NCBI GenBank assembly: GCA_029448655.1
Contig: JACCLO010000004.1
Span: 372,001 to 436,000 of the forward strand
DNA from: Wolfiporia cocos
Lineage: Eukaryota > Basidiomycota > Agaricomycetes > Polyporales > Phaeolaceae
Length of the DNA stretch: 64,000 nt
Direction of reading: 5' to 3'
Shown: piece after piece, positions 2,577 through 33,890 of the stretch
Numbering within the stretch: position 1 is the stretch's first letter
Layout of the letters: each line of letters begins with the position of its first letter
The notes under the pieces: model-generated
The model's input: the letters and a program-made list of their open reading frames with translations, nothing else
Told to the model about the DNA's origin: nothing
Databases searched by the model: none
Position numbers and translations under genes: made by a program

Positions 2577-2645
2577 GTAAGTTTTCTTATCTTCCTGTCG
2601 AACCAAAACCTTGAGTTCCTCGCACTAGTCTTTTCTGCTCCGGCC

Positions 2646-4764: not shown

Positions 4765-4766
4765 GC

Positions 4767-5039
4767 TGACATAGATGGCCTGTGGGACTCACCAAGCCTG
4801 TATCCTTGTGTACTAGGCGACTTGGAGAGGAGGATTATCAGACGCAGCAGGAGGTAGGAGGTTCTTCTACAGTGTACGCCGAGAAGAATAGAACTAAAGT
4901 TATAGGCCGTCAAGGCCCTACTTATATACATGTTTATGTGTATGGCACGTGCTACTAGCTAGTACTACCATTCCGGGTTATGTGGCTTTGCCAAGAGGCG
5001 AAGCGCTATCTTATCTGATGTTTAGTTACTCTATCTACA
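4767..5039 (-). repeat. N-family LTR fragment, minus orientation
   Basis: Starts TGACATAGATGG and carries the same sequence as the start of the LTR at 5079 (GTGGGACTCACCAAGCC, TAGGCCGTCAAGGCCCTAC). It stops at about 5039, where the sequence flips to the plus orientation of the same family. Confidence 0.75.
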
Positions 5040-6115
5040 GGCAAAGCCACATAACCCGGAAAGGTAACGACTAGTTAGTGACACAGATGGCTCTGTGGGA
5101 CTCACCAAGCCAGTATCCTGCGATGAACTAGGCGACTTAGGTGAGGAAGAGGTTATCAGACGCAATAGGAGGTAGGAGGTTCTTCTACGGCGTACGCCGA
5201 GAAGAATAGAACTAAGGTTATAGGCCGTCAAGGCCCTACTTATATACACAAATATAACGGGTCATGTGCTACTGTATAGTGCATGCCCGATAAGGAGTGT
5301 GGGCTTGGTTGCCATAAGGGCGACCAAGTGGTACGACTACTCTACAAAGGCCGTGACCCGCCGGTGATGGCCAAGCCAATGGTAAAAGAGAGAGCGTGTG
5401 GTCTCATCGTTAGATGGACATGTGAATACGGGCGCAGCCCGGGTATAAGGGATGCCGGTTGCCGGATACCGTGAGGTATAATGGCGATTGGCCGGTCATC
5501 GTGTGCTAACCAAGGCGAGACGCCGAGGTCGTAATGCTATTGGGCCAGCAGGCACCGTAGCATGTGATATGTCCGGACCGGATGGTTACCGGAGCATATG
5601 GTGGCCTTAGCCGTGAGGCGAGGACCGGTGTTTGGTGTCACGGTTTTTATACCGTGGCATGGGTTCGATCCCGTACCCTCCTAGACATGTAGTCACATGA
5701 CGTGTTCGCCGTTTAGTGTAGTGGTCAATCGCCCCCGTAGCAGCGTAACTACTCTCACGCTTAGGTCGCCTTTGGCTAACGTTACTGTAGCACATGACTG
5801 ACATGCGCGCACGGTCCCTTACTGTAGGGTAGGACTTACGTCGCGCCTCTGTAGTACAGCATGTATATAGTCTACTGCGCTGGGGCCTTACAGCCCCATG
5901 CTAGTTATTCTCGACGTTGGGGCTTGTCCCCCTGTATACCATCTCTACCACTGTGTGCGCCTGCTGGCTTAGCCACCTCTCGTCTTGCTCATCTGCGCCT
6001 CGTCACTGCGGTGTGGGGACGACCTCTACGAGCCCCTAAGGACTTACGCGTTAGGATGAGGGCCACTAGGACAGCGGTACACAGGTTATACGGTATGAGC
6101 GTATAACTGTGTCAT

Positions 6116-11053: not shown

Positions 11054-13350
11054 ATGTCGACACACGCAACCTACGAAATGACTACCGTCATAATCGACCC
11101 CCCCAATCTCGCATCGAACCCCATATCACCAATTTCCGACACCGCACCTCCCTTATCTCCTTCGCTCGAATGGATCGAGGAAGAACCAGGAGAGTTCTTG
11201 GTACGACGAAAGGAAGCGGCAGTAGACGGCAAGGGATCCGTAATCGAGGAAACCCCAGCCGAAGAGATGAAGGAAGCCGAAAGACGTGTAGCCAGTCTGG
11301 AAGCTACAATTTGCCGACTGGAGGATGAAATTACATCCCTCCGAAGGGAATCACTTCCCCCGAGTACACCGACACACGAATTCGATTCACGTCGGATCGA
11401 ACCCCGAACGTTCGAAGGCGGCATCACCGCCCTGGAATGGATCGCCCATATGGAGTCGTACTTCAATTTCGCTAAAATAACCGAAAACGAAGATCGAATC
11501 TGGCTAGCGCTAGAATTACTGCGCAATAATGCCCTCCACCATATGGCTATAATCATAAGCCATGAACGGGAACCTATCCGGAGAACATGGGACTACTTCG
11601 TCGCTTGCCTTTTATGGTTTAGCAGAGAAGAGACGAACCGAGAAATAGCCCGAATACAAATCAAGGGATACCTTAGCGACCCCGGCCGAGCAATGATAAA
11701 ATACAATCTCGAAGAATGGATTGTTTCCATTCAAACTCTAGGCCGACTCGCCGATTTAGACACCAAAGACATGATATCCGTAATCGAGGATGTCCTGCCG
11801 GAGGGGATTAAAAAATATATTCCCTCCAACTCAAAGAACGAGTTCTGGACCGTCTATTTCGACAACGCAGTGTTGCTATTGCGACACTTGGGTCCCGATA
11901 CAAGGGAAGACTCGAAAAAGGAAACTGGTAGCCCAGAACCTGATAAGGTCTCGGGAAATACTACTGCGGCGAATAATGCCGTATACTACCGAGAAGTAGC
12001 CGAAACCCCGCGTATTAGCAATAGGCAGTGTCACGGATCTCCTTGTGACGTCTTATCCCTAAGGTTCAAGCTTGTCGCACTAGACTTAGGTCGCAAACCA
12101 ACTAGGAAGCGACTTATTCAAGGCAAGCAGGTGGCAAAGAGGTAAAGGGTGGAGAGGAAATAGGGAAAGGGAAAACGCTCCCAACACTCATAGTAGAATG
12201 CTTAGATTATTGAGTCTAAGGTTTTAGACCCTAGACCATCTGGTTATATACATGTCTGAGACCTTGTACTACTGGTAGAAGTGTCTACCCTAAATGGTAG
12301 GTGGTCTGTGCGCATAGGATGGTGTCATAATTGCCTGTAATGGCATCATAATGGGTGATAGTGGTGCCATAAGGTACCTTGTCTATCTTTAGCCTGGTTT
12401 GTAAGTAAAATGCTATAGTTAGCATTGGTTTGTAAGTAATGACCTCAGAACCGCATCATGTGTGATGTCATAGTGGAGCTGTGGTCTAGACGATGATATC
12501 ATATAGCTCTGGCCTCTGTGATATATGTAATACCTGTGGGAGGGGTAACTATGTAGATAGGTTTCAGCCCTGTAATTGGACCTGCTAAGTATAGACCTCT
12601 AAAGATAGGCCTGTGATGTCATAGACTGGACCTGTATGGGCCCTGATGTCATGATGATGTCAGTGATCTGGACTCTTGATGATGTCATGCCTCAGGAGGC
12701 CTTTGACGACTAAGTCATTAACCAGATAAGATCTTGGGCACCTGACAAGGCGCCTGTGTTGGTACCTAGTGCCGCTATCTAATCTAGAAGTTTGGTGTAG
12801 GTCACGTGACCTCAATTCAGTAGGTCACGTGATCCGATAACTTTTGGGACGCTGTAGCGCCTTCAGTTATAAGGCTAGTACCCGCATATAGGGGTCTAAA
12901 AGGCTAAAATGGGGGATGCACGAATAAATCTGTGACAGGCAGTCCGATTGTAGACGCCACCCTGGCGTCCACATATGGAAAAACTGTCCTGAAAATTGGT
13001 CTAATACAAAGGGTAAAGAGGCGAAAAATACTCGAAGTGGCTCTGAACTAGTGTCGCTGGCAAGCACACTAAGTGGTACAATAAGGGGAACCAATCCGGG
13101 AGAATCGAAAAAGAAGACCAACCGGAGGATGCCGAAGAATACGGAGATCGAAGAAGATTCTCTAAAGGGTTCAAGAATCGAAGAAGATTCGAACCAGGTC
13201 CCCACCGACCAATCAGACGAAAAACGTCAAAGAAGGGAGACGGTTACTCCTTTCAACTACATTTTCGCACGCACCATAGGAGATGAGCAAACCTCGGAAG
13301 AAATAGAACGGCTAAACATATTTCGACCGAGATCACCAGCAAAGCTCTAG
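11054..13350 (+). CDS. Gag protein of element G, split by a solo LTR
   Basis: The first part is 11054-12028. Removing the 909-bp solo LTR and one TSD copy brings the frame back, and it continues 12943-13350, giving about 461 aa. Residues 70-100 look like a coiled coil; residues 110-300 match the retrotransposon Gag domain of elements B and D (FEGGITALEWIAHMESYF, LGRLADLD, DVLPEGIKKYI). Just after the junction a Cys/His motif CRRHPGVHIWKNC fits a C-x2-H-x3-H-x4-C zinc knuckle. The frame had no stop before the LTR arrived; the insertion now truncates it. Gag forms the particle and binds RNA, here presumably with enzymes supplied by related elements. Confidence 0.8.
12029..12937 (-). repeat. S-family solo LTR inside the element G gag
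   Basis: 909 bp, minus orientation, TGTCACGG...CTGTGACA, TSD GGCAG (12024-12028 and 12938-12942). A second copy in the opposite orientation is at 62427-63333. Confidence 0.95.
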
Positions 13351-16207
13351 GCCGAGCTGTTGCGCCAATCGCCAGGCGACTCTATCGAAGGGCTGGCCCC
13401 TTTCCACTCCTAAATCGGATAAAAGCCGACATCCGAACCTTGACCGTGAAGACAAGACGATCTCTCACGGTTAATAACTCTACAATGTAATTGTATATAC
13501 CTTCATACGATGTACTAGAGTACAAAGACCCGCTGTTACAGAATACAACTAGATGAAAAACATCGAATAGTGTGCGGTATTCTGGGTCTATAAAAAACAA
13601 AATGCAGAAGGAGCATTCAGCATAATAGATGGAAGCAGAAGGTTACACCCGACATAACTGTGTCATAAGGGTCAGACCGACCCACCGACGGCGAAAGCAG
13701 AATAGTCGAGGAAACCTATAACCAGCCAAAGTCATAACATCGGAAAGTAAAGCCATAAAGGAGGCTTGCAACCTCCTTATAAGGCCCAAAGACGATATAA
13801 CCGACTACGACTGATAACCGCCCTAAATCTCATAATACACGAGATTAAAAGGCAACTGCCAAAACTATCATAACGGCGAAAAATGCCATAATATGCGAAT
13901 GCGCGAAGGTCTTTTGTCGGACCATTCGAGGAGGAAACAGTTAAACTCCCGAAGAATAAAGACTATATACGGAATCTCCAACTAGGCATTAAGAGTGGAG
14001 ATTGAAACCGAATACCGTAGTTATCGGCTGACAAGCCTTTAACGAAAGTATAATTACACCAAGCTGATAAGGCATAGTAACGTACGATACCTGACAAGGG
14101 TCTACGTAAGAAGCACGGGACTATAAGTGCGAAAAAGCACGATGTCTCAAGATAATAAGCGGTGGTTTCGTGCGAAACCCCCTTAAATCGAAAAAGCTTC
14201 GAATACTAAAGCTGCATAATATACGAATGGCAATGGAACCTCTGCCCAGGCGGTCAGAATTTTAAGGAGGGGGTGGACACCCTTCAAAGTTCATTTACCC
14301 GCAATACTCAAGGTTAATCCAGCCATGTATACGCTAAGCGATAGATTACGAAAACGAAGACTATCAAAGGCTTAACTCTCTAAATACGAGCCAGAAAGTA
14401 GACACCCAAGTAGTAATCGAAGAACAGAATAGACAATAAGACAAGGGCACCTGAACAAGGACCTTAACAATCCATAAAGGGGATCAGTATCAAGAATAGA
14501 TTGACGACAGTCGATAAAAATATTCATAACACGATCTATAACCCCAAGGATTAATGTCGAACCAGGCAAACATCCGAAAAATAATCCTAGACCACACCAG
14601 TAGCAGTCTAATAGCCACAAGGTCGTTGAACATTCCGATCCCAAGGCAATTAAAGACAACTCATAAGCAGCTGAAAAGCGCATAATGACGAGTTTAAGCC
14701 TACATACATCGGTGGTCAACACATAGGATTAAACGATGAAGTTACATCAGTTTCCCTGAAACAAGACAAGTCGAATAGAGCATAACGACGTCCACTTTCC
14801 CAAGTAGACATAACAAGACGCGTATTGGCTGTACATTAAAGCCGATGATAGTCTGTCAATATAAGACACGCATCTAAGTCGAAAAGGACTTTCCATAACC
14901 AGGAAAGGGATAGCTCGAAAACGACATAATACGTCGAATAGGAAAACGTAACTATAATATCGAGGATAATAAAGCCTATAAGGACAAAGCATGCACCATG
15001 ACCTGACAAGGCATGGTAATCCGACAATGGTTTTAAGTGAAAAACCCTAGAATAAACACATGGAACCTAATTCTCAGGCAACCTTGGAGGTGAGGGACCA
15101 ACGGTGCCAGTGCAACGTGGGCCGAAAGGCAGCGGGCGCATTGGAGTGCTGAAGGTCAGCCATAACGGGAAAAGGGAACCTAAAGGTCGAATCATGACCT
15201 AATAGGGCCAGTAACTTAGAAAACCGGAAAAAGGAAAACGGTCAGGTCCCCAGAGCACTAGTAACCTAATAAAGGCCATACTCTATAAATCAGGCGTAAA
15301 AAGCCATAAAGAGTCAACCTATACGGTGAAAAGCTCGAAGGACAAAGAACCAATATTCCCTATAAATCTAGCACAAGTCCAACGCATACGGGAAACCACT
15401 CTATAATAAAAATATCGAATCATAACGCCATAAACAGGCAGAGGAGATATTAAGAGATGGTCAATCCTAGTCAGACAAGTACATAAAGAGAATATAACTC
15501 GAACTAAGACCGATCCTGGAAATTCATAACTCGACGAAAGCATAACAACGCCTAGTCACGTGACCTATCCGAACAAAGGATAGCTCCAACCTTAAAACGA
15601 CCCAGATTAGCTCAATAAGAGGTAGATTCGAACGAGAATCAAGCCGACAGGCCCTCATAACCAAGAGCATATAATCTGCCCATAAACCCATTTGAACCAC
15701 GGTGATAGCGGTAATCCAAGTAACAACCATCGGTTAAAACGACTATAAAAACGTCATAAAAACCTCCATCAAGGCTTGAAAATGTCCCCAAAAGTGACAA
15801 TAACGTCACAACAGAGATTGCAAGGCAGCGTATCGATAAGTGCCCGTAGAACGTCGATTAAATACCTTTGGATAAGCAAGGACGCACGCCGAATCTCTAA
15901 GACTAGCCACTAGAAGGACAAGTAAAGTCGAAGGAGGCCAGACAACAGCCGTTACCATAGATCAAGTTACGATGGAAAACCCGCAATAACCATACGTCAA
16001 GTAGACGATAAGCAAGGCCACGACACCTTAATTTTTTCACTATCTATAAACAAGTCAGATAGTAATCAGAAGCCATGCTACAGCCATAAGCATATCAAGT
16101 CTACAAGGTTCAATATATTCGGGATAACCGAAGAAAATCTGCGTAAAAGCATCAACGGGCTCGTAACAATAGAATCCAGCTATCGTTACAAGCAGGTTTT
16201 ATAATAC
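13351..16207 (+). ncRNA. Element G 3' noncoding hairpin array
   Basis: No coding frame on the element strand over 2.86 kb. Instead many short perfect inverted repeats with A-rich loops: GGAGG/CCTCC (about 13762), ATCTC/GAGAT (about 13829), GTTTC/GAAAC (about 14166), CGAC/GTCG (about 14919), GGTC/GACC (about 15185), CTATCC/GGATAG (about 15565), GATTC/GAATC (about 15626). The density resembles element N internal sequence. The label marks a proposed structured RNA region; chance hairpins cannot be excluded by eye. Confidence 0.35.
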
Positions 16208-16245
16208 TTCAACAGGGTCGTTGAACAACTCTAAGGGGGGAGTGA
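16208..16245 (+). promoter_or_regulatory. Pre-PPT hairpin and polypurine tract (element G)
   Basis: TTCAAC (16208-16213), loop AGGGTC, GTTGAA (16220-16225), then AAGGGGGGAGTGA directly before the 3' LTR. Confidence 0.8.
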
Positions 16246-16900: not shown

Positions 16901-17400
16901 TTTGGCTCCCTTACTGGTAACCAAACAAAGCATGTATATAAGTAGGGCTATCACTACGGATAAGCCTTAGATTTGTTCTCTGCTATCGCATAGTTACATA
17001 ACATTCCTACTGCGCCTACAAGCGTTCCCTCACCAGCTTCAACAACCCCTTCAAGTCGTTATCAAGCTATAGTGTGAGTCCCACAACCTTGTTTGTGTCA
17101 AGAGGAAGGGAAAACAAGGGACACACGCTATTGATACGCGTTCCCTTGAAGTGTAGCGGAGGTCGTCAAGACTTCCAGAATCACACTTCATTCGGCATCC
17201 TCGCACATCGCAGAATTCACACCGGTCCCAAACCGGTCCCCCCGAATTGAAATCGACAACCTCGCACGCCAATTGCAAGAATTGTCACGAGACTCGCTAT
17301 CTCACTTACGATTTCACTCCAATACGACATTTTCTCTGTGGGGAGAACAACTGTATTTGGAAATTCACACTAGCAGTAAAATGCGATCGTCCGCAAAAGG

Positions 17401-17450
17401 CTTCAAAAGGAAACTCGAAAATCCTCCGAAGTAACAGATGAGCCCCATCT
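17401..17450 (+). ncRNA. Structured module copy 1 (element N)
   Basis: Order: stem A CTTC/GAAG, 3-nt spacer, stem B AGGA/TCCT, 10-nt loop AACTCGAAAA, 2-nt spacer, close A, linker TAAC, stem C AGATG/CATCT with loop AGCCC. A further 6-bp stem TCCGAT/ATCGGA follows at 17465-17482. Confidence 0.6.
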
Positions 17451-18218
17451 TTTAGGACAATCACTCCGATTTGGCAATCGGATATCATTACAACTGCTTG
17501 GTTTACGGAAACCTACGTCGTCGAGACACGTAATAAATAAATCCGGATCTGTTTCCTATCTTCCGATTAGGAATACATCTCGTCACTACACCGAACAAGA
17601 GCCTGAGAAACTCTTCGGTATCGACAAACTAGGGCATGGGAAACCTTAGTATTGACACAGACTCACTGTCTGTGCGACCCCTGGGCTCAGGGGGATCCAT
17701 ACAGGCCTACAATCGAGGCTACAAGGCACCGCGCCAGCGCTGAACGCAGAGGCTCATGCACGCATGTCATACGTCGAGATGGCAGCGGCGGCTCACAGAC
17801 AAGGTAGACGAGATATGGGCCCCGGGCCAGTAGATCACACAGCGTTAAGCGAGAAAGGGTTATGCACCATTGTCGAGAATCTGAGAGATGGGGTGTAAGC
17901 CCGCATCTCGTCGTATTATATACATGCTTGTGTATACTACCGAGACCGCCCTAAAGTAGTGGTCTGTGCACCGCTATCTAATGGGTCATGTGCTAGGTAA
18001 CGAGACATGTAACAATGTGACCATATGTGACGGTACCTGAGGCGCGCGCTACCCTACAGCGCTAACCAAACGACCAGGTGACCTGCAATAACTGGGAGAC
18101 GCCGGAGGTGGCTACAGCGCAGAGACGCGGCGTACGCCTAGCGCCGCGCGTGCGTCCTATAGCGAGGGAGTCCAAACCTGCATAGAGAAAGTCTGTGACA
18201 TTACCCCCCCTCTCGAAA

Positions 18219-18236
18219 AACGTCGTCCCTGACGTT
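18219..18236 (-). promoter_or_regulatory. Pre-PPT hairpin of TRIM-2
   Basis: On the minus strand AACGTC, loop AGGGAC, GACGTT: a perfect 6-bp stem followed by the purine tract at 18201-18211. Confidence 0.8.
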
Positions 18237-18967
18237 CTACCTTGAATCCTACGACGCTCGCTACCTTGGTTGCTTGTTTGACTCGAGGCCCATTCCTTCT
18301 TCGCGGAGGATGGGGAGCATCCAGGAGCACGGTCCGTCCGCCGGTGGTGGAGCGAAGTGAGCTAGCCTTCAGGAGACATTGGGAGCAAACCGACCATCCC
18401 TGTTTCCTTACATCCCGCGACGTGAGTTGGCGAGGCGCGCCAGCGGTGAGCGTATTGGTACATGTCAAAGTTCATGACTTGCGCCGACTTAGCTACGCGT
18501 GGCCCACCGACCTCGGGGTATGTGGTTCGCTCGTTGGTATTCGGTAGTCTGTCGTGGTGGATTGCTTTCTGACCTTCGTGATCGTCGGTGTGGGGTTGGG
18601 TACCCTTGCGGGACCCTTCGCATACCCACTGATCATCAGTTCTTGGTGATACCCTGCCGCCCAGGGGTAAGTGGCCGGACTGCCCTAGACCTCCACACGC
18701 GCGCGCATTCCCTTTGCAGGGGTGACGGCGGCGGGTCCTCAAACGGGGCTTACGTCGGTCGACCCCTTCTACCTTGCGTTCGAAAGGGGGCGGTCTTGCT
18801 TACTCACTCCGCACGGGTACTTCGCCTGGTGTAACGCTTCGTGGGGGCTCGTAAAACTACGGACCTCTGGCGCTTCTACCAGAGGCTGCCCCGCCGCGTT
18901 GCCATGGCACCCTGTACGTGGAGAACCCTCGGCCCCAACGCAGTTCGCGCCGGAGGGGAGGTAAGAT

Positions 18968-18979
18968 ATCTCTCAGATT
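18968..18979 (-). promoter_or_regulatory. Self-primer binding site of TRIM-2
   Basis: The minus-strand site AATCTGAGAGAT, next to the LTR, is complementary to ATCTCTCAGATT in the LTR (plus coordinates 19206-19217), 12 nt. Confidence 0.8.
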
Positions 18980-19533
18980 ATGACACAGACTCACTGTCTG
19001 TGCGACCCCTGGGCTCAGGGGGATCCATACAGGCCTACAATCGAGGCTACAAGGCACCGCGCCAGCGCTGAACGCAGAGGCTCATGCACGCATGTCATAC
19101 GTCGAGATGGCAGCGGCGGCTCACAGACAAGGTAGACGAGATATGGGCCCCGGGCCAGTAGATCACACAGCGTTAAGCGAGAAAGGGTTATGCACCATTG
19201 TCGAGAATCTGAGAGATGGGGTGTAAGCCCGCATCTCGTCGTATTATATACATGCTTGTGTATACTACCGAGACCGCCCTAAAGTAGTGGTCTGTGCACC
19301 GCTATCTAATGGGTCATGTGCTAGGTAACGAGACATGTAACAATGTGACCATATGTGACGGTACCTGAGGCGCGCGCTACCCTACAGCGCTAACCAAACG
19401 ACCAGGTGACCTGCAATAACTGGGAGACGCCGGAGGTGGCTACAGCGCAGAGACGCGGCGTACGCCTAGCGCCGCGCGTGCGTCCTATAGCGAGGGAGTC
19501 CAAACCTGCATAGAGAAAGTCTGTGACAAGTAT

Positions 19534-20599
19534 AAAAATCTGGTCGCATATGCGAGCGACCCGGATAAAGCCGTACATGGATATATGACAAACAATACCT
19601 TCGGCCCACATCCACCCACCCTTATTTAGGTTATAGAGGCGGTTTAACCTCTTTAAAAACCAAAACCAACGGAATAGGTTTGATCGGGAGATCAAACGTG
19701 GAAGAGGGGGTGAGAACCCTAAATCCGCATTCTGGACCTTCAAAAGTCCGCTATCCCATGCTTACAACAGTACCTTACGGTCTTGAAAGCACCAAACGAC
19801 ATGCACTAAGAGGCTTGATTACCCTCGTTCATGTTCGTACTGTCCTATTCGTATATGGACGACAACCCTGTAATAGGAATATAGTAGCTATCTATCCAAT
19901 AGCGAAATACATTCTTCCCCAACGATCATCCCAGTTCCCACGCTTACAATGTCATACTTAATCGAAGAACGACTTTAACAACATACAAGCACATTGGAAA
20001 CTACCGTCATCGCCACCACGTGACTTCAGCCCTTACGGGATACGCCTATACGAGACAACTCCTGACAAGGATGTATGTTCTCACGGTTACCCAATAAGGC
20101 CTCACTACGGCAACGACACTACAGTATCAGGGAATACAATCATAAGCATTGACCATAATGCACAATGATTAGTACCTATACAATGGGGTTTTACACGAGA
20201 AGCCTACTCGTTAATAAATAGTGCATACAACCACGAAGGCACAGCTTCATCCCGGAACCTTACGACTCCGAAGAGATTGCTACATAGAAGCAATCTAACT
20301 AGGGGACACAACCCCTGTAACAAATGGGCATTGACAAATGTCACACGCTTAGTACTTGCGATACTAGGGAGGCGACGCCTCATAAACGTTCATAAGGCGA
20401 CGCCCTTTAATAACCGTTCAACCGCATAAGTCGTACAAAGTAGGATTACCCCTGTACAAGCAACAAGCCTAAGACACCCGCTATTCGAATGAAAGGAACC
20501 AGCTACTCCATTCACCGATATACAGCAATAGACGTCGAAAAAGCACCGCTATGCTACATTCAAAGGGTACTACGCATAAGCCACTATAACCGCCCAAGG
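19534..20599 (+). ncRNA. Element N internal segment 3, hairpin-rich
   Basis: No coding frame of a known family. Perfect hairpins include GTCGC/GCGAC (about 19545), AGAGG/CCTCT (about 19635), GTTTGATC/GATCAAAC (about 19678-19697), GGAC/GTCC (about 19735), AGATTGCT/AGCAATCT (about 20274-20296) and GAGGCG/CGCCTC (about 20369-20381). A structured transcript is inferred, not shown. Confidence 0.35.
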
Positions 20600-20649
20600 A
20601 CTCGAAGAGAAACTAGAAAATCTCCAGAGTTAACAGAAGAGCCCCTTCT
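20600..20649 (+). ncRNA. Structured module copy 2 (element N)
   Basis: Stem A ACTC/GAGT, spacer GAA, stem B GAGA/TCTC, loop AACTAGAAAA, spacer CA, linker TAAC, stem C AGAAG/CTTCT with loop AGCCC. All spacings equal those of copy 1 while every stem has a different sequence. Confidence 0.65.
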
Positions 20650-20833
20650 TACAGGTATCCGGCACAATGCTATCCGAAACACGTACAACGACACAATGCA
20701 CCCTCTAATACGCTTGGCAAGCTATTAGAGAGACAGATTACTAGTAGATTTCAAAGGCACTATATGATGAACATTTCCATATCGCCTTCTACTACGAGTA
20801 AAGTCATAAGCAAAAGCAACAATCCGACCAAGG

Positions 20834-20883
20834 TCGCGAAAAGGCACTAGAACACCTTCAGCGATAACAGGAGAGTCCCTCCT
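20834..20883 (+). ncRNA. Structured module copy 3 (element N)
   Basis: Stem A TCGC/GCGA, spacer GAA, stem B AAGG/CCTT, loop CACTAGAACA, spacer CA, linker TAAC, stem C AGGAG/CTCCT with loop AGTCC. Same geometry as copies 1 and 2. Confidence 0.65.
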
Positions 20884-20944
20884 TCTAGGATCCGCGTGCA
20901 CAATGACAATACACTCAAGTAACAAGACTACACCTCCCCAACAA

Positions 20945-21160
20945 CGGCATTTGACCTCTCGGTCATCACGCGTTGATAATCGCTAGTAATGGCATTTAGC
21001 ACTTCGCTATCACGCGTTACAAATCACTATAAGGAATACAATCGCTATCCCATTCAACGCTCAGGTTCCACTACAAAGTCCTGAAACTCCCATTTATCCC
21101 TGTTCAATTAACAAAATTGAAGCAGCACCTTAACGGCATTTGACACTTCGTCATCACGCG
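20945..21160 (+). repeat. Three related GGCATTT...ATCACGCGTT units
   Basis: GGCATTTGAC/GGCATTTAGC followed by a tiny variable hairpin and TCATCACGCGTT or CTATCACGCGTT occurs at about 20946, 20990 and 21133. The small stems differ (GACC/GGTC, AGC/GCT, GAC/GTC), as in the larger modules. Confidence 0.5.
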
Positions 21161-21195
21161 TTATACCGCTCTTGGGACGTACATAATGAGGAATA

Positions 21196-21232
21196 GTTTC
21201 ATCAGGGACGATGAAACCTAAAGCGGGGGTAA
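21196..21232 (+). promoter_or_regulatory. Pre-PPT hairpin and polypurine tract (element N)
   Basis: GTTTCATC (21196-21203), loop AGGGAC, GATGAAAC (21210-21217): 8 bp, then AAAGCGGGGGTAA. Element B has nearly the same sequence at this place. Confidence 0.85.
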
Positions 21233-22132
21233 TGTCACAGATTTATCTGGGGCTTACAGCATTTTTCCTATGATTATAGCAATTTACCTGGGATTTATAC
21301 GTCTAACTACCAGTTATCTACGGGTTAACTCCCATTGCCACCACGACAAGCTCTTGACTGGGCTTATCACCACATGACCAGCTTACATAACGCTACGGCA
21401 CCTTCCGGTCCAATAGCATAGTTACAGCTACGTCATACAGGTCTCGCCCGACAGAGCAAGACCAGCCACGTCATAGATCCTAGATCATAATGATAGGCCG
21501 AGCGCGGCACGCTCGCATAATAATGTCCACATGTACAAACAGTGCCTCACGGCCTTGTACTATTGGGTCGGCCTTCACGGCTTCCCACCGCCATAAGATC
21601 CTTGATCACAATGGCACCTCAGGCGCGGCACGCGGACCGGGCTGTAACACATGCCACGGTACTTCCCATCCAATGGCATAACGACCTCGGCACCTCGCCT
21701 TGGTCATCCAACGAAGCATGGCCAATCGCCATTATACCTCACGGTATCCGGCAACCGGCTTCTCCATATACCCGGGCTGCGCCCGCGTTCATATGATAAC
21801 ATACACAAATCCCTCTCCTACGATTGGTGCGGCCATTAGGGCCCATCACGGCCATTGTAGATAGAGTCCATAAACATCAGATAAGATAGCGCTTCGCCTC
21901 TTGGCAAAGCCACATAACCCGGAAAGGTAACGACTAGTTAGTAGCACGTGACCTTCCCATAAACATGTATATAACTAGGGGCTTGACGCCCTATAACTTT
22001 AGTTCTATTATTCTCTCGGCTTGCGCCGTAGAATAACCTCTCACATCCTGCTGCGCTGGTATTGCCTCCTCTCTAAGTCGCCTTATCTCAACAATATAGG
22101 CACTTGGTGAGTCCCATAGGCGTACTGTGTCA
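21233..22132 (+). repeat. 3' LTR of element N (900 bp)
   Basis: TGTCACAGATTTATC...GTACTGTGTCA, with TATA-like CATGTATATAAC near 21965. It matches the fragments at 5040-5078/7763-7901 and, inverted, 4767-5039, 5079-7757 and 24566-24639/43113-43446. Confidence 0.85.
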
Positions 22133-23038: not shown

Positions 23039-23594
23039 TGTCACAAACTTTCCATAATGTCTTGTAACAACCCTCGCTATAGGACGCACGCGCGGCGCTA
23101 GGCGTACACCGCGTCTCTGCGCTGTAGCCACCTCCGGCGTCTCCCAGTTATTGCAGGTCACCTGGTCGTTTGGTTAGCGCTGTAGGATAGCGCGCGCCTC
23201 CGGTACTCACACTATGGTCACAGTAGTTACATGATGCGTCACTTAGCACATGACCCAGTAGATACGGCGCACAGGCCTTCTCTTTAGGGCAGTACTAGTA
23301 GCTCCACCGCTCATGTATATATTACGACGGAATGTGGGCTTACTCCCCATTCCTAAGATTCTCGACAATTGGGCATAGCCCCTCTCTTACTACTGCTGTG
23401 ATGCCTGCTGGCCCGGGGCCCGTATCACGTCGTGCTTGTCTGTGAGCCGCCATCGTTACCTCGACGTACACAAGGGATGTCTGGCTCCCACGTTGCCTCT
23501 GCGTTCAGCGCTGGCATGGTGACTTATAGGCTCGCCTCACGGCGCGTATGGTTCCCCCTGAGCCCAGGGGTAGCACAGACGTAAGTCTGTGTCA
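23039..23594 (+). repeat. TRIM-2-family solo LTR
   Basis: 556 bp, TGTCACAAAC...GTCTGTGTCA, same family as the TRIM-2 LTRs. The TSD is TTAGG (23034-23038 and 23595-23599). Confidence 0.9.
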
Positions 23595-25390: not shown

Positions 25391-27238
25391 ATGATATTTG
25401 GACCAGAATTCCCAGCACGACTGATTGAACTCTTGCCCGAGGACATTCAGGGAGTCTACAGACTCAACCAATACGAGTGGACTGACACCATTGGAGCCTT
25501 CCGTAACCGCGGAGGAATTGTTGTCATCCCCAGAGAAGATAGGGCATCGAAGTGGGTACAAGTATACCCCTCCGCAGGAACGACCGCTTGGGAAATAACG
25601 CGTGAAGCGTTCAAACGATTCGGAGAAATCCCTCCGATGTCAACCGCGACGTTGACCGAAAACGAAACCGAAACCATCAACAGAACCTTCGATGCCGATG
25701 GAAATACGAATCAGCCTTCGGGCGCCACAGGAATGGCAGGAATTGAGCGCATCAGAGATGATGGGAGAAATCCTGGAAACTTTACAGGAACAGATAACAG
25801 CCAGACCGGAGGACAGGACCCTCCAGGATTTATATCTGCTTCTGCGCAGAGTGGGATTGGGTCTATGGCTGGAGGAACAGACCTCTTTGGAAACCCCCCA
25901 CAGAACGCACCCGGAATGGGTAGCGGAGGAAATCCGTCTTGGACTAGCCCAAGCGGAGGAATGGGAACGACAAACCCAGGAACATGGCCTTCAGGCCTAT
26001 TTGGACGAACCCCCACAGGTACAAGCGGAGGAGGACTGGGAAGAAACTTCGGACTCGGAGGAGGGAATGCCTTCCCTCCTGGAGGACTCGGAGGAGGAAC
26101 CCCCGCGAACCCCGGAGGAGGAAACCCTGGAGGGAACTCAGGGAACCCCGGAGGAAACCCAGGAAACCCGGGTGGAGGATACCCGGGAGGAGGAGGACCC
26201 CCAGGAGGGCCTCCACCACCGAATGCGCCGCAACCTCAACCTCCGGCGCCGAACCCGTACTACCGACCCCCGATGATAAAGATCAATCCCCCAGACGTAT
26301 TCGACGGGGAACGATCCGACATGCAGAACTTCATAAACCAGTGCAATTCCTGGTTTACAATGTACGAAACGTCATTCCAGAACGACGTTCAGAGAGTGAT
26401 CTTTATCCTCTCTTATATTTCGAACAAGGGGAAAACGGGCCAATGGAAACAGAATTACCACCGGGTTTATACGAACCCCCAGACGAAACGATTCTTCCCG
26501 CCTAGTCTTGCACAATTTGATGCAGACTTCCAGAAAGCCTTCGGAGCCATCGAAGAGGTACAGAAAGCGCGGAAGAAAATCCTGGACGTAACCCAGGACA
26601 GGAAAGACATCGATGATTATATCACCGAGTTCAACAACTTGGCCGGGAAGGCCCAGTACGATCGATACAGCGCGGACAGAAACGCGTTGCTCATAACCCT
26701 CTTCGAGAAAGGGTTACCCGAACATACAACCCGATATATCATCGGCGTTCGACCGCTACCAGCAACCATTGATGAATGGCAGTCCGCTGCCTCGTACTAT
26801 GAAAATACGTACAAGATATTCTTGAAACGAGACAAACCGTTTGTCAAGAAAAAGGCTTGGCAAGCCTCGAACCAGAATAGCGGACGCACTAGCGCTCCGC
26901 AGACAACCGCACCGAAAGATCCGAATGCGATGGATGTAGATCGAATGACCACCCAGGAAAGGGACGATCACATCAAGAAGGGAAAATGCTTCACCTGTCA
27001 TCAGCCAGGACATATGTCGCGAGACTGCCCGAAGAGGCCGAGAAAGCCAGCCCGCCCTAGGCGGACTACTCGAAAAACCGAAGAAGAAGAAGCCGAGCAA
27101 GAAGCTCGCATTGAAGAAGTCTCCGAGGAAGAGACTGAATACATCACCGCTAACAGAGCGGTCACAGCAATTAGGGCTCTGAAAGCCAAGAACCCCGAGC
27201 TCCTAGCAAGGCTCGTAGAAGAACAGGATTTTGCCTAG
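25391..27238 (+). CDS. Gag of element C
   Basis: 615 aa, starting 46 nt after the LTR. The first 80 residues are a compact domain of unknown type ([12 protein letters not shown]). Residues 100-290 are Gly/Pro/Asn-rich low complexity ending in [13 protein letters not shown]. Residues 300-480 fit the retrotransposon Gag fold ([19 protein letters not shown]). A CCHC zinc knuckle [14 protein letters not shown] lies near residue 533, followed by a basic and then an acidic tail. The pol frame is -1 relative to gag and is already open before the gag stop, so frameshifting is possible; no classic slippery heptamer was seen. A second long frame overlaps the low-complexity part. Confidence 0.9.
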
Positions 27239-27327
27239 GAGGGAAGCCCACGGTCTTACCCTCCGAGAAAGCAGCACATGTAATTACCTCGTTCGAGAAG
27301 AATCGATCCCTCTTCATCCCGGTAATC

Positions 27328-29101
27328 ATGACGCTGGCAAAACCCGTGAAGTGCAATGCACTAATCGACTCAGGAGCAATGTCGAACCTGATCCACAGCA
27401 GAGTGGTAGAAAAATACAAGGTGCCCACGCAACCTTTGAAGAACCCAATCATCGTCAAAAATGTTGACGGAACAGAAAACAAAGATGGGCGAATAGACCG
27501 AGAAGCTACCATACTACTACGATATCCGAAGACCCAGAAAACGCGAAAAGTCCGATTCCTGGTAGGATCAATCGGAACAGAAAATATGATTCTAGGGTAT
27601 GGATGGCTAAAAGACGAAAACCCCACAATCGACTGGAAGGACCAAACAGTCGATGTACGATCGGTACTAGGGGCAGAAGAAAAGAAACAGGAAGCCACGA
27701 TCCGAATGGATACGGTGGAAATGGTAGTTGCCCCAGAAGGAACAATTCCAACAAGGGGGACCCAAGAAGCTGCAGGGTATGACCTTTACGCCGCAGAAGA
27801 AACCGAGATTCCTGCCGGAGGATGGAAACTCGTCTCCACAGGAGTAAAAATGAAGATCCCGAAGGGATCGTATGGAAGGTTGGCCGGACGATCAGGCAAC
27901 ACCCTCAGACACGGATTGGTAGTACAAGCCGGAGTCATAGACTCGGACTACCGAGGAGACGTCGGAGCCATCGTCTTCAACTACTCAAACAAAGCACATA
28001 GAATTATCCCGGGCATGCGAATAGCCCAGATAATTTTCGAACAACACCTCACCCCCGACATCTTAGAAGTCGAAGACCTAGATGAAACAAAACGAGGGGA
28101 GAAAGGGTTTGGATCCACGGACCAGCCAGAAGAAACAACGCAGCGGCTCTATACTCCCGAGGAGTATGAAGCGATCCGACGCTTCGTGAAAGATAACCCT
28201 AGGATCATAGGGAAGAAAGGGGAGACGCGAAAGAAGTTCCGAACAAAGATACAAATCATAAACGCTGTCAGGAAAGCGCTGACGAAATCCCAGGAATTTG
28301 CACAGAAAACCCCCGAACCAGAACGAACGATTGAGGAGATGGTTCCCAAACACCTACTGGACTTCGCCAAGGTGTTCAGTAAGGAGTCCGCAGCAGCGTT
28401 CCCCCCGTCGAGACCATGGGACCACGCAATCGAATTAAAACCCGATTTTGTGCCGAAAGACTGCAAAGTCTATGCACTCTCGCCTAAAGAGCAGCAGGCG
28501 CTGGACGAATTCCTAAAAGAAAACCTGGCCAAGGGATTCATAGTCCCTTCAAAATCCCCGATGGCGTCACCATTCTTTTTCGTCCCAAAGAAAGACAGCG
28601 GCCTACGACCCTGTCAAGATTATCGGTATCTGAACGAAGGGACGATAAAGAACGTCTATCCCTTGCCACTGATCTCAGAGCTCCTGGAAAAGTTAAAAGG
28701 AGCAAAGATCTTCACAAAGATGGACCTTAGAGCGGGATACAACAACGTGCGAATCAAAAAAGGGGACGAATGGAAAGCGGCCTTCAAAACAAACCGAGGG
28801 TTGTACGAGCCCACGGTTATGTTTTTCGGATTGTGCAATGCACCCGGGACCTTTCAGGCAATGATGAACGAAATCCTGAAAGAAGAAATTCTCGAAGGAT
28901 GGGTGCTTGTTTATATGGACGACATCCTTATTTTCTCGGAAGACGAGAAAATACACAAGGAACGAGAGCGGCGGATCCTTCAGAGACTGGTGGATAACCA
29001 CCTCTTTGTGAAACCCGAGAAATGCGCCTTCGGTGTCGACAGAGTCGAATTTCTGGGACTAGTCATCACCCCAGGAAATATCCAGATGGACCCAGCGAAA
29101 C
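27328..29101 (+). CDS. pol of element C, part 1: protease, dUTPase, reverse transcriptase
   Basis: The protease active site ALIDSGA is near residue 13. A full dUTPase follows: motif 1 AAGYDLYAA (about 145), motif 2 [10 protein letters not shown], motif 3 [10 protein letters not shown] (about 205), motif 4 [10 protein letters not shown] and motif 5 [10 protein letters not shown] (about 256). The RT has [17 protein letters not shown] and the catalytic YMDDIL near residue 530. The dUTPase would lower dUTP during reverse transcription. Its place between protease and RT differs from elements A and B, where it ends the polyprotein. The frame is open upstream of this ATG to within gag. Element B interrupts at 29102, and the codon is completed at 39111 after the TSD. 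Confidence 0.9.
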
Positions 29102-29800
29102 TGTCACAGATTTGGGACATGCCACTATTTTTCCCGTATTTTTACCTATTTATCTGGTATTTCTACGACCTTGTAGACATTTACGCTGCCAAGCGCTCGT
29201 CTACACGTACACGCAAACAAACAACACGTACACAACGCGGTATACGTCCACTTGTCATAACAACACGTACATAACACGCTTGTACGCGTCAATGACTCAG
29301 CGGATTAACCTTCGGTGTCACGCGCTTTACTCATATCCCGGTACCGGGCTATGTCAGTACGATTGGATAAGCGGCCCGCTCGTTATCACATGCCAATGCC
29401 CTTATGATTACTCATATCCCGATGCCGGTATATAAGAATCACATGCATGGCTTACTAACGTAGCTACAGCCACTTCCACAACATGGACCTACGGTCCAAA
29501 CAAACGATCTTACTGGTGCGGCCATTACCGGCGCACATGGTCTATTGTAGTTTACGACTTAACCATATTAGTTATGTCTGCGCACAGACCACCTTCATGT
29601 TTGGCTCCCTTACCGGTAACCAAACAAAGCATGTATATAAGTAGGGCTATCACTGCGGATAAGCCTTAGATTTGTTCTCTGCATTCGCACAGTTACATAT
29701 CATCTCTGCTTGCGCCCACTAGTCTCCTCACCAACCTCCAGCAACTCCTTCAAGTCGCTTATTAGGTTATAGTGTGAGTCCCACAGTCTAGTCTGTGTCA
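29102..29800 (+). repeat. 5' LTR of element B
   Basis: TGTCACAGATTTGGG...GTCTGTGTCA. TATA-like TATATAA at 29634-29640; probable transcript start near 29668, the first base of the self-primer. Confidence 0.95.
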
Positions 29801-29802
29801 TA

Positions 29803-29813
29803 AGAACAAATCT
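29803..29813 (+). promoter_or_regulatory. Self-primer binding site of element B
   Basis: AGAACAAATCT is the reverse complement of AGATTTGTTCT at 29668-29678, about 28 nt after the TATA box. Confidence 0.85.
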
Positions 29814-30821
29814 CCCCCCTACCCCCGCCCTTGCGCTTGCGCTTGGGTCTGGGTTTCTATCCTACAGGGGCTATTACTTGTTGCTGCGCACATCCCTTTC
29901 TGCCTGACAAGGCGATTGGGGTGATAGTTGAGATCTGGGGGATACATCGCCATCCTCGGCAGAGGATTGGCAACCAGGGAAGCCACACCGCCTTTTTAGG
30001 CAGGAGGCCTACCTAACCCGGACTCCAGGGTCAAGGAGACACGGTCCTCGCTGACAAGCTTGGACTATGCGCGGTTAAGACCCGCCTGTGGAGAAAAGGG
30101 GACGGTCTGCCTGTGTGCGCCCAACCCCCTGTCATGGCAAGCGTTGTTCAGCGCCCCATCACTATCCATAGGGTCGTCATCATGACGGCATGGGAATTTT
30201 CCAAAGCCGCCTCCCAGGCGTAAGGGACCTGCTTTGAACCCGTTATGGGAAAAGCAGTGAGGGGGGTGACGTAAAAAATCACCCTGCCATAGGTCACTCG
30301 CGGTAGCCAATAGCATAAGTCCTCCGGGCAGCTCGGCGTGCGAGCATGGGTCAAACGGATTTGGGGCCCCATTGGAAGAGAAGCGCGTGGCCCACTCCCT
30401 CGGGATGTGGAGCGCTGCTGTCTCGCGATCCTAGATCGACAATGGTTTTTTAGCCCTGATGTGACACCCATGTGGCTACAGACGGCAACCTCATTGTTGA
30501 AGCATGGACAGGCTAAGAGATGTAAAATCCCAGCCACTTTCCGGCATCGTCCCTCCGGGGCGGTGTCGTGTATCCGATTCCCAATCATCTGACCCAGGAA
30601 CCGGCCTGGCAGTCAGCAACTCTACCCCTGGAGTCGGCGCCTCTGACCGTTAGGGTCATGCGAATATCCGCGCCGTCTCGGCACAGGGTTTGCGCGCAAC
30701 ATAAGAGTAATTATGCCCCGTAGTACACCTTCTTTGCTCCTGAAAAGGAGTCCACTACCCTACCTTACATAATCCCTTTCATTCCTGTTCTTGGGCGTAT
30801 CACTGGGAAACTTCGTTTCTC
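29814..30821 (+). other. Leader of element B
   Basis: About 1 kb, GC-rich, without a gene on the element strand. The motif GATCTGGGGGAT is at 29932-29943, 132 nt after the LTR, nearly the same distance as in G (133) and close to D (106). It may serve packaging, dimerisation or internal initiation. Confidence 0.6.
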
Positions 30822-31745
30822 ATGAAGGCTGCACTTTCTAGAATCATGCCCCGCGTTACCCGTCGCACCCGTGGCTCCTCCACTGCCCCTTACGTCAAAC
30901 CGACGAAGCGGTCCCTTCTCAGCCGCATCGACACCGCCGACATTCCTCGGGCAGAGGACGTCACCTACACGCTTCCTGTAAAGGAAGATTACACTGGGAA
31001 ACTCCATCTTTGGGAGATTCCCGTCCACATGCCAAAGCACATTGCTGAGGCTGGGAAACCCGCTCCTCGACCTCCCAAACCAGTTCCGCTCGCTAAGCGT
31101 ATCTGGACAGAGGAAGAGAAGCTAGCGCAATCCATTACCGCCATGGAGAATCTCATCGAACTCCGCGAACTCAACAAGCTCAAGCTCGCTCGCGATAAGC
31201 TGAATAAGCGAATCGCCGCCAAACAAGCCGCCAAGGAAGCCAAGCAAGCAGCTTCTTCACTGGCCCTCCGTCTCTCCAGCCCGGCGGCCGGACCTTCTGT
31301 TCCGGCCAACCACAAGATTCTCGACCCTTCCCTCGTCTTCGGGAAGAAGAAGCCTCTCCAAGCATGCGATCAAGTTATTCCCATGCTAGAAGGCACTCTC
31401 ACTCGCCTCACTCCTCTCGCCAACCACCCCCCTAATTACCCAGGCTTCCATATGGAAAACGACATGCGTTTCCATACTATGGTAGTAGAATTGGAGGATC
31501 TGGTGGATAACGTAAAGGATAGAGCGAGACGGGGGAGGATCACCAATAGAGACTGGAGAATTATGAAAAAGTATTGCAAACAGCTCGGCAATATTTCCTT
31601 TTTGGATTGGCGTACGGACTTAGCTCGTATCGTAGCAGAATGCGTAGCGCTACAAATTACTTTTGCCTTCGGTGTAACACCACCTGACAAGGTGGCAGGG
31701 CCCTCAACTACTTCGGTAGAAGAGGATATACTCGCGATTGTATAG
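30822..31745 (+). CDS. Pre-gag accessory protein of element B (ORF1)
   Basis: 307 aa from the first ATG; a start at 30846 (MPRVTRRTRG) is equally possible. It opens with a basic stretch, then GKLHLWEIP (about residue 60), a long charged helix (residues 85-145), a Ser/Pro linker and a C-terminal helical domain (residues 215-285) with ITNRDWRIMKKYCKQLGN. Element D codes for a protein at the same place with GKPELWNIP, a charged helix and IDNKQMRLLVKNCKIIGN, so the two are homologous by eye. No known retrotransposon domain fits. It is not Gag, which follows separately. A particle, RNA-binding or nuclear-entry role is only a guess. Confidence 0.75.
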   Translation: MKAALSRIMPRVTRRTRGSSTAPYVKPTKRSLLSRIDTADIPRAEDVTYTLPVKEDYTGKLHLWEIPVHMPKHIAEAGKPAPRPPKPVPLAKRIWTEEEKLAQSITAMENLIELRELNKLKLARDKLNKRIAAKQAAKEAKQAASSLALRLSSPAAGPSVPANHKILDPSLVFGKKKPLQACDQVIPMLEGTLTRLTPLANHPPNYPGFHMENDMRFHTMVVELEDLVDNVKDRARRGRITNRDWRIMKKYCKQLGNISFLDWRTDLARIVAECVALQITFAFGVTPPDKVAGPSTTSVEEDILAIV

Positions 31746-31892
31746 TAGAAATACTATCATCTTTTAACTCTGAAATAGAGTGCGAGTGTGATCTATAACG
31801 AAAGTCGCAGCTTTCAAAACCAATCCCTTCTTAAGAATCTAAGACAATGAGTAACCAGAAACTAACATTCGTCACAAACAGTATTCACAAAA

Positions 31893-33890
31893 ATGTCTTC
31901 CACCTCCTCCGTTAGCACCCCCCTCGCTCCCCGCAAGATGCGCCTCCGCTCAGAAGGCCCGGTGACACCGGTAGCTGGTCCCTCGGGAACCCAGCAACTG
32001 GTGACGCTGGAGCACCTAAGCGAGGGAGAAGAAGAGGAAGAGGAAGAAGAAGAGGAAATGCCGGAGTTCGCTCCCCCGCAAAGGGAATCTCCGACCAATC
32101 CCATGGGTACACGCCCGGGCTCCCCCATTGCCGGATACCCACCGGCTCGTCGAACTCGCCCTATCGGGCCCGCCACCACACTGGAAATGGAATTTTCGGG
32201 TCCGACACGACAGACCAATGTCGCTGTCGAGAACAACCTCAAGGCGTACCTTCCTGAGGAGGAACACCACAAGGTGGATGGGTCCATACATGGGCCAATC
32301 ATCGATGCCGCCGTACAACGAAGTGCGGCCATAAGCCATGACACCACCGACACCCTAGGTCGAATGGTGCACGCCCGCCTGGAGCGTATCCATGAACGAA
32401 TCGATTCCCTGGCTGGGCAATCCAGGGCAATCGAACAGAAGGCCCAAGACGAACTACACGAAGCGGTCAATTCGGTCCGCAACGAGGTGCTGTCCACTCT
32501 GGTGGACCTCGGCAAGGAACTCCGACAGGAGTACACCGCCAAGTTCACCACCCTGGAAAAGGAGCTCCGCAAGGACTACCGATCCAGGCTCGACGACCTC
32601 GAGGACGCATTCGCCGAACGAATGGAGAAGGTTGACGAGGAACTCCGGAGGATTCGCAAGAATCCCTCCGTCCCCAACCCTCCTGGCATCCGCACGCCTC
32701 CGAGCAACCCGGCACCTGCCCCCGGCAATGCCCAAACCCGTGCAGCCGATGCCGCTGCCGCCGCACAAGCTGCAGCTGCTGCTGCAGCAGCCGTCGCCCC
32801 GCAGATTCCAGGTCTGCCTCAAAACCTGAAAATCCCCCCTCCCCCCGAATTCTCTGGGTCATCTGGAAAGGTGACTGCTCAGGAATGGGTGGAGAAGATG
32901 GGCCTGTACTTCGGTACGCTCAGGGTCTACGACGACCATGACCGTATCACCACGGCCCTCTTCCGCGTCACAGGGGACGCATACAAATTTTTCTCGCCTC
33001 TCATCAAGAAGGCAGGAAACGGTGAACCTCTCGGCACCTGGGAGGACTTCACCAAATCCGTAATGGTGCAATACGGGAAGATGACGGATAAGGAGATCGC
33101 GAAAAAGGAAATTCGCGGCTACTACGGTACCAAGGGCAAGGAACTCGCAGAATCGAACTATTTCAATTACTGCGAACGATTCCGCACCCTCGGCCGTCTC
33201 TCCGAAACCGCCAACGAGACCCTGGTGTGGGAGTTCACCGAAACACTTCCCGAAAAGGTTAAGGACACCTTGAACGTCCTCGGCAAGACCCCCTTCTTCA
33301 AAGCCCCAACCGACATCGAGCCCCTCATCGACTTCGCCCTGGAAATGTACCAAACGTCATATCCAGACAAGATCAAGGGGTCGATTTTCGAGAAGGCCGG
33401 CAAGAAGGACTCGGCACCTACCGAAAAGAAGGAGACGTCCTCCGCTTCTGCGAAGAAGTCGGAGAAAAAGAAGGACAAGGGAAAGGCGCCCGCCAAAGCC
33501 CCCGCCGACACCGCCAACGCCGTCTGCACCTACTGCAAGCAGACGGGACACTATTTCAACAAGTGTCCTAAGCTTGCCGCGGACAAGGCTGCGGGAACGT
33601 TCGTGCCTGCCGCTCAGCGGGCCGAACAACAAAGGGCGAAGGATGCAGCTGCCGCGTCTGGAAAGACTACGGCTGCTCCTTCGGGTAGTGGAAAGGGACA
33701 GGCTTCTGGCAAGAAGCCGTACTCGGCGCCCCCCGCAGATGGCAAGACGTATCGTGCCCGAACGATCTGGGAAGAAGTGACGGCTGACTCAAGCTCAGCA
33801 GGACCCTCGGCCCCCGCCACCACCGTCGCCAATGTCGGGACCATCTCGGTTCCCCTCGCTCCAACCACACGTCTCGAAGACGTTCTGTGA
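31893..33890 (+). CDS. Gag of element B
   Basis: 665 aa. Residues 45-60 are a run of glutamates; residues 150-260 predict a long coiled coil; an alanine-rich stretch precedes the Gag domain (residues 310-500; WVEKMGLYFGTLRVYD, LGRLSETANE). A Lys-rich linker leads to the CCHC zinc knuckle CTYCKQTGHYFNKC near residue 545. The end overlaps pol by 59 nt in the +1 frame. It makes the virus-like particle and binds RNA. Confidence 0.95.
   Translation: MSSTSSVSTPLAPRKMRLRSEGPVTPVAGPSGTQQLVTLEHLSEGEEEEEEEEEEMPEFAPPQRESPTNPMGTRPGSPIAGYPPARRTRPIGPATTLEMEFSGPTRQTNVAVENNLKAYLPEEEHHKVDGSIHGPIIDAAVQRSAAISHDTTDTLGRMVHARLERIHERIDSLAGQSRAIEQKAQDELHEAVNSVRNEVLSTLVDLGKELRQEYTAKFTTLEKELRKDYRSRLDDLEDAFAERMEKVDEELRRIRKNPSVPNPPGIRTPPSNPAPAPGNAQTRAADAAAAAQAAAAAAAAVAPQIPGLPQNLKIPPPPEFSGSSGKVTAQEWVEKMGLYFGTLRVYDDHDRITTALFRVTGDAYKFFSPLIKKAGNGEPLGTWEDFTKSVMVQYGKMTDKEIAKKEIRGYYGTKGKELAESNYFNYCERFRTLGRLSETANETLVWEFTETLPEKVKDTLNVLGKTPFFKAPTDIEPLIDFALEMYQTSYPDKIKGSIFEKAGKKDSAPTEKKETSSASAKKSEKKKDKGKAPAKAPADTANAVCTYCKQTGHYFNKCPKLAADKAAGTFVPAAQRAEQQRAKDAAAASGKTTAAPSGSGKGQASGKKPYSAPPADGKTYRARTIWEEVTADSSSAGPSAPATTVANVGTISVPLAPTTRLEDVL

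Follow-up and report, generated by a model that had tools for sequence, protein, structure and literature searches.

In a 64,000-nt stretch of the Wolfiporia cocos genome (hereafter the window; the genome comprises 64.4 Mb in 76 contigs), a non-coding long terminal repeat (LTR) retrotransposon, element N, carries three copies of an RNA module that is almost certainly a selected three-way junction formed by the sense strand of N. This high confidence applies to the structural part of our reading alone. The original prediction had placed three 50-nt modules at 17401-17450, 20600-20649 and 20834-20883, and the coordinates, stems, loops and linkers it listed were all exact in the sequence. Its layout of three stems was incomplete, however: all of these stems are present, but a fourth helix, P1, had been overlooked. 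P1 encloses both hairpins, as revealed when 33 of the 83 distinct modules were aligned together with their flanks, so the real unit is a three-way junction of about 70 nt (Table 1).

From 5' to 3', the module consists of P1, GNNNAAGG, P2 (4 bp), an RAA/CM internal loop, P2b (4 bp), the loop NACTNGAANA, P2b', P2', the linker TAAC, P3 (5 bp), the loop AGYCC, NNNA and P1', although a few sequences depart from this order. P1 appeared in the 33-sequence alignment in the spellings GTCC/GGAC, ATCC/GGAT and ACC/GGT, and it covaries (UA with AU, and AU with GC). It is also the weakest helix, with 87.9% of cells paired and with three of the four pairs formed in copy 2 of the window. RNAalifold, unprompted, recovered the fold with three of the four P1 pairs (the outermost was missed), and added an invariant G-U pair below P2. 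A pseudoknot between the P3 loop (AGYCC) and the junction AAGG was considered by eye only.

Covariation and copies of the module

Base pairs that hold while their stems change had been taken in the original prediction as the mark of a selected RNA structure, and this was borne out: the covariation exceeded that of neutral simulations along the tree of the motif itself. The 33 aligned sequences were hand-picked for diversity, with broken ones kept, from the collection of 83, which had been gathered with a loop pattern allowing 4 substitutions at most. In this alignment, 96.4% of 561 cells were paired, and both sides had changed in 13 of the 17 pairs. The covariation score was 0.645, compared with 0.231 ± 0.016 in shuffled alignments and no more than 0.117 in slid ones; the further pair types were not in excess (27 vs. 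28.2 in shuffles), and 30 of 500 shuffles likewise arrived at 13 pairs in which each side had changed. In 300 neutral simulations on the motif's tree, doubly changed paired cells numbered 17.3 ± 8.7 (maximum 56), compared with the observed 129. Pairing in the same simulations was 56% (maximum 78%), compared with 96%, pairs with double changes numbered 4.8 (maximum 10), compared with 13, and pair types 13.7 (maximum 23), compared with 27. The pairs stand far above the phylogenetic background, as does the element-wide covariation in the simulations on the element tree described below. Additionally, the paired columns were more variable than the unpaired core columns (entropy of 0.84 and 0.41, respectively), and thus the stems seem to be kept by pairing, and the loops by sequence.

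Further copies with covarying pairs were found in other N elements. The motif pattern, searched in the whole genome with up to 3 mismatches tolerated, gave 558 matches (247 + 311), whereas the same pattern read backward, used as a chance control, gave 11 (6 + 5). A scan of the window and the fetched loci by geometry only (4 bp, 3, 4 bp, 10, 4 bp, 2, 4 bp, 4, 5 bp, 5, 5 bp; 13 standard pairs, at least 11 of them Watson-Crick) returned 42 distinct 50-mers, all 42 of which were this motif, and met no module with different loops. A 301-nt piece holding two modules had at least 40 genome copies at 91-100% identity, itself counted, among the best 40 of 193 candidates.

Twenty-seven full-length copies out of the 39 N loci fetched entered the element alignment. 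Those excluded were L014, whose internal domain is 100% identical to that of the nearly full copy L013, the partial matches L022, L024, L032 and L051, and L044-L050, which are 85.6-85.7% identical to L013, as is L043 (they were compared with L013, not with L043). In the 27 copies, covariance model R1 gave 82 matches, all in the sense orientation; 81 of them lie where the three modules were expected, and the remaining one in a neighbouring N fragment in L038. An ungapped search (up to 5 substitutions, matches with at least 10 pairs kept) recovered 76 of the 81 places (25, 26 and 25 at positions 1-3, respectively) and none in antisense, and all 13 inner pairs were intact in 74 of these 76 modules. 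The five places missed by this search scored 50-90 bits with R1. All three modules were seen by the ungapped search in 22 of the 27 copies, and the number of modules per N element ranged from one to three.

The divergent L066-L069, which are outside the training set of R1, scored 68-84 bits and brought new stem spellings (AGAA/UUCU, AAGA/UCUU and CGGA/UCCG); the loop of L068 departs from the pattern. The closer relatives L070 and L071 scored 95.0 and 91.6 bits. N also has a shorter relative, N2, at C4:395318 and 339139, with an LTR related to that of N (84-93%, in L064) and one module match per fetched stretch. When N is compared with N2, the module is conspicuous for its identity amid poorly aligning surroundings, and P2 and P3 show compensated pairs. 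Outside the host genome, collections of viral and genome contigs were covered and gave no relatives: the matches to the exact pattern in viral contigs (5 records) and genome contigs (1 record) have unpaired stems, and R1 scores there are at most 10.6 bits.

The original prediction knew of no described RNA of this layout, and Rfam 15 gave 0 matches at the gathering threshold in the window. With E-values up to 10, only 3 matches were obtained in L013, of 12-17 bits compared with gathering scores of 60-85. Hammerhead, twister and other known RNAs were rejected, being without an Rfam match in the window and in L013, including its 3' LTR, and ARAGORN found no tRNA genes in the window. We found no description of the module among the top results of literature searches, judged by titles and the openings of abstracts, a body of text in which subscription papers are mostly not covered.

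Element N and the leader shared with element A

Element N is a non-autonomous LTR retrotransposon resembling the large retrotransposon derivatives (LARDs), and it was recently active. As predicted, the modules of the window lie inside it, but this copy lacks the 5' part, including the leader, and is interrupted by another, small LTR element. The latter has an interior of 780 bp, and a segment of its LTR is found again, in inverted orientation, at 23071-23206 (98%). The nearly full copy, L013, begins within the 5' LTR, which ends at 212 (the rest is outside the stretch), and continues with an internal domain up to 4137 and a 3' LTR at 4138-5231. A GGGGG tract precedes TGTCACAG, the end of the 5' LTR is repeated in the 3' LTR, and the 5' LTR is followed by TAATAATAGAACTTCC; the typical TGG start of a tRNA primer-binding site was not seen by eye.

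The 3.9-kb internal domain of N has no conserved open reading frames (ORFs). The longest ATG ORF per copy had 44-203 aa in the 27 copies, at varying places, compared with 50-154 aa in 50 shuffles of L013. A degenerate gag/pol was rejected as well, since tblastn with the proteins of element A, a Ty3-type neighbour of N in the window, gave nothing below E 0.59 in N. N apparently encodes no protein. The LTR pairs, compared over 180-339 nt each, were identical in 18 of the 35 measurable copies (4 of the 39 loci had no measurable pair), and were 78-96% identical in nine, from age or from mispairing. Among the 27 aligned copies, the median difference between internal domains is 9.7%. As many LTR pairs are identical and yet the internal domains are this far apart, much of the variation predates the present insertions and arose in replicating lineages, which is the stage where selection on RNA would act.

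Gene-less non-autonomous LTR elements, LARDs and terminal-repeat retrotransposons in miniature (TRIMs), are known and reportedly encode RNA structures that are conserved (PMC7215508). N is similar to LARDs, e.g., Sukkula, in its LTRs, in its long internal domain without protein products and in its assumed mobilisation in trans. It differs in that its structure emerges from base-pair covariation, in the repeated three-way-junction module, and in a leader that shows homology to the leader of an element which may be its partner. The class of elements is known; the module itself appears to be new.

The module is a covarying structure, as had been claimed, but not the sole one: N contains several. 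In the whole internal alignment, we counted 749 doubly compensated cells, compared with 213 ± 44 (maximum 311) in 40 simulations on the element tree, rooted on a real copy. Strict covarying stems numbered 13, compared with 0.9 ± 0.9 (maximum 3) in these simulations, and those with at least two compensated pairs 8, compared with 0; the rule for a strict stem (at most 15% broken) was equal for real and simulated data. Of the 13 strict stems, seven fall within the first ~0.9 kb and three correspond to P3 of the modules; the other three are located elsewhere. A second family of hairpins follows the modules downstream (Table 1); its inner and outermost pairs change together between copies, as judged by eye, and no convincing copy of it was found in A within the window. 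Where Watson-Crick stems had one or more compensated pairs, GU cells exceeded AC cells (164 vs. 88), in contrast to stems without compensation (561 vs. 684), which modestly favours pairing in the sense RNA.

The pol of A encodes protease, reverse transcriptase (RT), RNase H, integrase, a chromodomain and dUTPase, as identified with Pfam, and A thus combines in one element all five domains that define a dUTPase-containing Ty3 chromovirus. Among the fungal chromoviruses that carry dUTPase (Postia PosPlaTy3, and elements of Phanerochaete and Tuber), PosPlaTy3-4 of Postia is reported to have the RT, RNase H, integrase, chromodomain and C-terminal dUTPase that A has (PMC2864245). Non-coding relatives with a common structured leader, as described here, go unmentioned in the accessible text of the accounts of PosPlaTy3-type elements.

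In a BLAST match of 726 columns, the leader of N shares 67% identity with that of A, which is untranslated; over 948 aligned positions the value is 63%. The two elements are also alike at the 3' end, around the polypurine tract, and these homologies make A a candidate for the partner that would mobilise N. The best 40 of 566 first-look candidates for the A leader are 99-100% identical, which indicates that A amplified very recently. Six of 12 N leader stems pair completely in A, five of them with double changes; for instance, GTGGT/ACCAC in N is replaced by CTGAC/GTCAG in A.

Possible role of the modules and competing explanations

Our reading as a whole is that N contains a selected junction and a leader in common with A, and that its modules may aid export, protection and capture in trans; we regard this full statement as having an even chance of being correct. 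More tentatively, and with somewhat less than even confidence, we propose that A is the autonomous partner of N and that the modules act in trans capture. The structured leader of ~0.9 kb in common with A would probably carry common packaging and reverse-transcription signals, as the structured 5' region of Ty1 and Ty3 functions in dimerisation, packaging and priming (PMC4974528; PMC11381356). The ~3-kb domain without conserved ORFs would hold selected hairpins, including one to three modules, and selection would act on the genomic RNA of N from one copying round to the next. Junction and loop nucleotides, if kept by sequence, would be read by something, and in the stems only the pairing would be kept. 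The most likely role of the modules is that of binding sites for a protein, Gag or one of the host, which may aid export, protection and trans capture of the untranslated N RNA into A particles. As N RNA is probably untranslated, cis capture by freshly made Gag would be unavailable to it; the modules could make up for the translation-coupled capture open to A's own mRNA, and would serve a need peculiar to N.

In yeast Ty3, nt 429-4979 are dispensable when the proteins are supplied in trans (PMC4974528), whereas N keeps a ~3-kb domain with selected structure where the Ty3 sequence is dispensable. In the light of what Ty3 can lose, this retained structured domain is the surprising part of N. N appears to parasitise A by means of RNA alone. 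A bolder version, in which N would be an RNA-only satellite, its entire genome a selected non-coding RNA with the leader derived from A and the modules out-competing the helper RNA for capture, seems to us rather improbable; such an element would be comparable to a viral satellite RNA or a defective interfering RNA, but stable over many replication rounds.

Several observations weigh against the reading of the modules as selected sense-strand junctions in a partner of A. The low variability of loops is partly a matter of ascertainment, as the alignment was gathered by the loop pattern. L067 has one broken pair in each of P2 and P3, one P1 pair is absent from L066 and L069, and P1 is lost in the L043 group. 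The z-scores of folding energy of 8 modules ranged from -1.85 to +0.30, and the predicted minimum folds of these modules comprised the inner hairpins and P1 in four cases, the hairpins without P1 in two, and other structures in two. A scan of folding energy in 120-nt windows was weak and not specific for N, with the strongest 1-kb average (z of -2.04) at 13.0-14.0 kb, outside N, and for this reason we dropped folding energy as evidence. As to the strand, a counterpart scan with AC allowed in place of GU yielded nearly as many strict stems (10 vs. 13, and 7 vs. 8), and, of the 26 AC cells in the strictest set, 17 sit in one stem, the cells not being independent; the strand evidence is therefore modest. 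In A, the other six of the 12 leader stems retain 7/13, 7/9, 7/9, 7/10, 5/7 and 7/11 pairs, the 12 stems were chosen for covariation in N, and the counts in A stand without a null. No module was found in A in the window, where the next best R1 match after the three real ones scored 10.8 bits, indicating that the module is not a packaging signal common to N and A.

Template switching by reverse transcriptases is common, and covarying stems could arise with no selection if a polymerase switched strands at short inverted repeats and copied one arm onto the other. The stems are indeed almost always perfect, as in the 74 of 76 modules recovered ungapped, and covarying hairpins occur elsewhere in N, too. 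Such a correction of hairpins would nevertheless have to account for loops and junctions more conserved than stems (entropy of 0.41 vs. 0.84, partly ascertainment), for loop and junction sequences that recur at three positions and in N2, whose surrounding sequence aligns poorly, for P1 pairs that lie ~60 nt apart, across two hairpins, and for the excess of GU over AC in compensated stems and not in others, and we find it very improbable. Still less probable is passive inheritance, in which a structured RNA was captured a single time and its relic, the module, has since been copied along without serving any function today. The copies of N have a recent common ancestry, and stem variants recur between positions, which makes recombination or conversion among modules possible, but the covariation exceeds the simulated neutral null and the module is better conserved in N2 than its surroundings.

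If the modules are functional, they could instead recruit a host protein as nuclear export or stability elements, without any part in capsid capture, for which retroviral constitutive transport elements provide a model. RNA that is not translated would have to be exported and protected, N has one to three modules whose unpaired nucleotides are conserved, and none was found in A in this window. No host-protein consensus was recognised in them, though no systematic search was made, and there was no Rfam match; we consider this explanation unlikely, if worth keeping in mind. The compact junction, with conserved GNNNAAGG, TAACA and an A before P1', could also suit a ribozyme or a ligand-binding RNA, as junction and loop nucleotides are strongly conserved and the stems are free. 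Other non-autonomous LTR elements, the retrozymes, are reported to bear hammerheads (PMC4918200), and N is similar to them in being such an element with a structured RNA; in contrast to them, it has no hammerhead match, and its modules are internal rather than located in the LTRs. Since no Rfam ribozyme matched at the gathering threshold in the window or with E up to 10 in L013, and since a retrotransposon whose genomic RNA cleaves itself should lose copies, this possibility appears slight.

The long non-coding internal domains of non-autonomous LTR elements are easily taken for spacer. With over 500 pattern matches in a single genome, identical LTR ends in 18 of the 35 copies measured and strong covariation, one can ask directly which RNA shapes a parasite needs in order to exploit the machinery of a different element. 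The module is a defined target of ~70 nt suited to break-and-restore tests of pairing, and the common leader points to RNA signals that, in an element of the Ty3 type, helper and parasite both use.

Features of the window and neighbouring sequence

Table 1. Coordinates of the module copies and of elements N and A in the window.
Feature	Positions	Strand	Details
Module copy 1	17389-17458	+	Three-way junction; from sequence, model R1 (92.4 bits), alignment, pair counts and RNAalifold
Helices of copy 1	P1 17389-17392/17455-17458; P2 17401-17404/17428-17431; P2b 17408-17411/17422-17425; P3 17436-17440/17446-17450		
Module copy 2	20588-20657	+	P1 20588-20591/20654-20657, 3 bp only (ACC/GGT); model R1 94.0 bits
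Module copy 3	20822-20891	+	P1 20822-20825/20888-20891; model R1 95.8 bits
N internal domain, upstream piece	17101-17652	+	Corresponds to L013 1888-2441
Small LTR element inserted in N	17653-19528	+	Not part of N; identical 548-bp LTRs at 17653-18200 and 18981-19528
Target-site duplication of the small LTR element	17648-17652 and 19529-19533		AGTAT
N internal domain, downstream piece	19529-21232	+	Ends in polypurine tract AAAGCGGGGGTAA
Second hairpin family	20942-21163	+	Three 33-34-nt hairpins at 20942, 20987 and 21131; AACGGCATTT-stem-loop-stem-ATCACGCGTT
N 3' LTR	21233-22132	+	TGTCACAG ... TGTGTCA
Element A, Ty3/dUTPase	29102-39105	+	LTRs 29102-29800 and 38407-39105; GAAAC at both flanks
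Untranslated leader of A	29801-30821 (~1 kb)	+	Homologous to N leader, L013 430-1134
ORFs of A	30822-31745, 31893-33890; pol 33832-38367	+	

Upstream of N, approximately at 12938-16245, lies the internal domain of M, a further LTR element that is apparently non-coding; this domain is rich in short hairpins connected by ATAA-like linkers. It holds the lowest 1-kb z-score of folding energy in the window and has eight near-complete genome matches, itself counted. Comparison with a single copy, 92% identical over 1.4 kb, gave 3 compensated pairs compared with 1.0 expected (P 0.06).

A 0.91-kb (approximately) LTR-like sequence occurs in identical form at 12029-12938 and, inverted, at 62426-63333, ~50 kb apart. 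At 58673-60506, an array of 86-bp tandem repeats runs in both orientations, so that 58.7-59.3 kb and 59.9-60.5 kb make up large inverted repeats. A second element of the Ty3 type occupies 25391-29274 and 39227-42391; its dUTPase domain lies between protease and RT. With GAAAC on both sides of A, and with RNase H, integrase and chromodomain continuing after A, this element appears to be split by A. As the dUTPase of A is C-terminal, two placements of this domain are present in the window.

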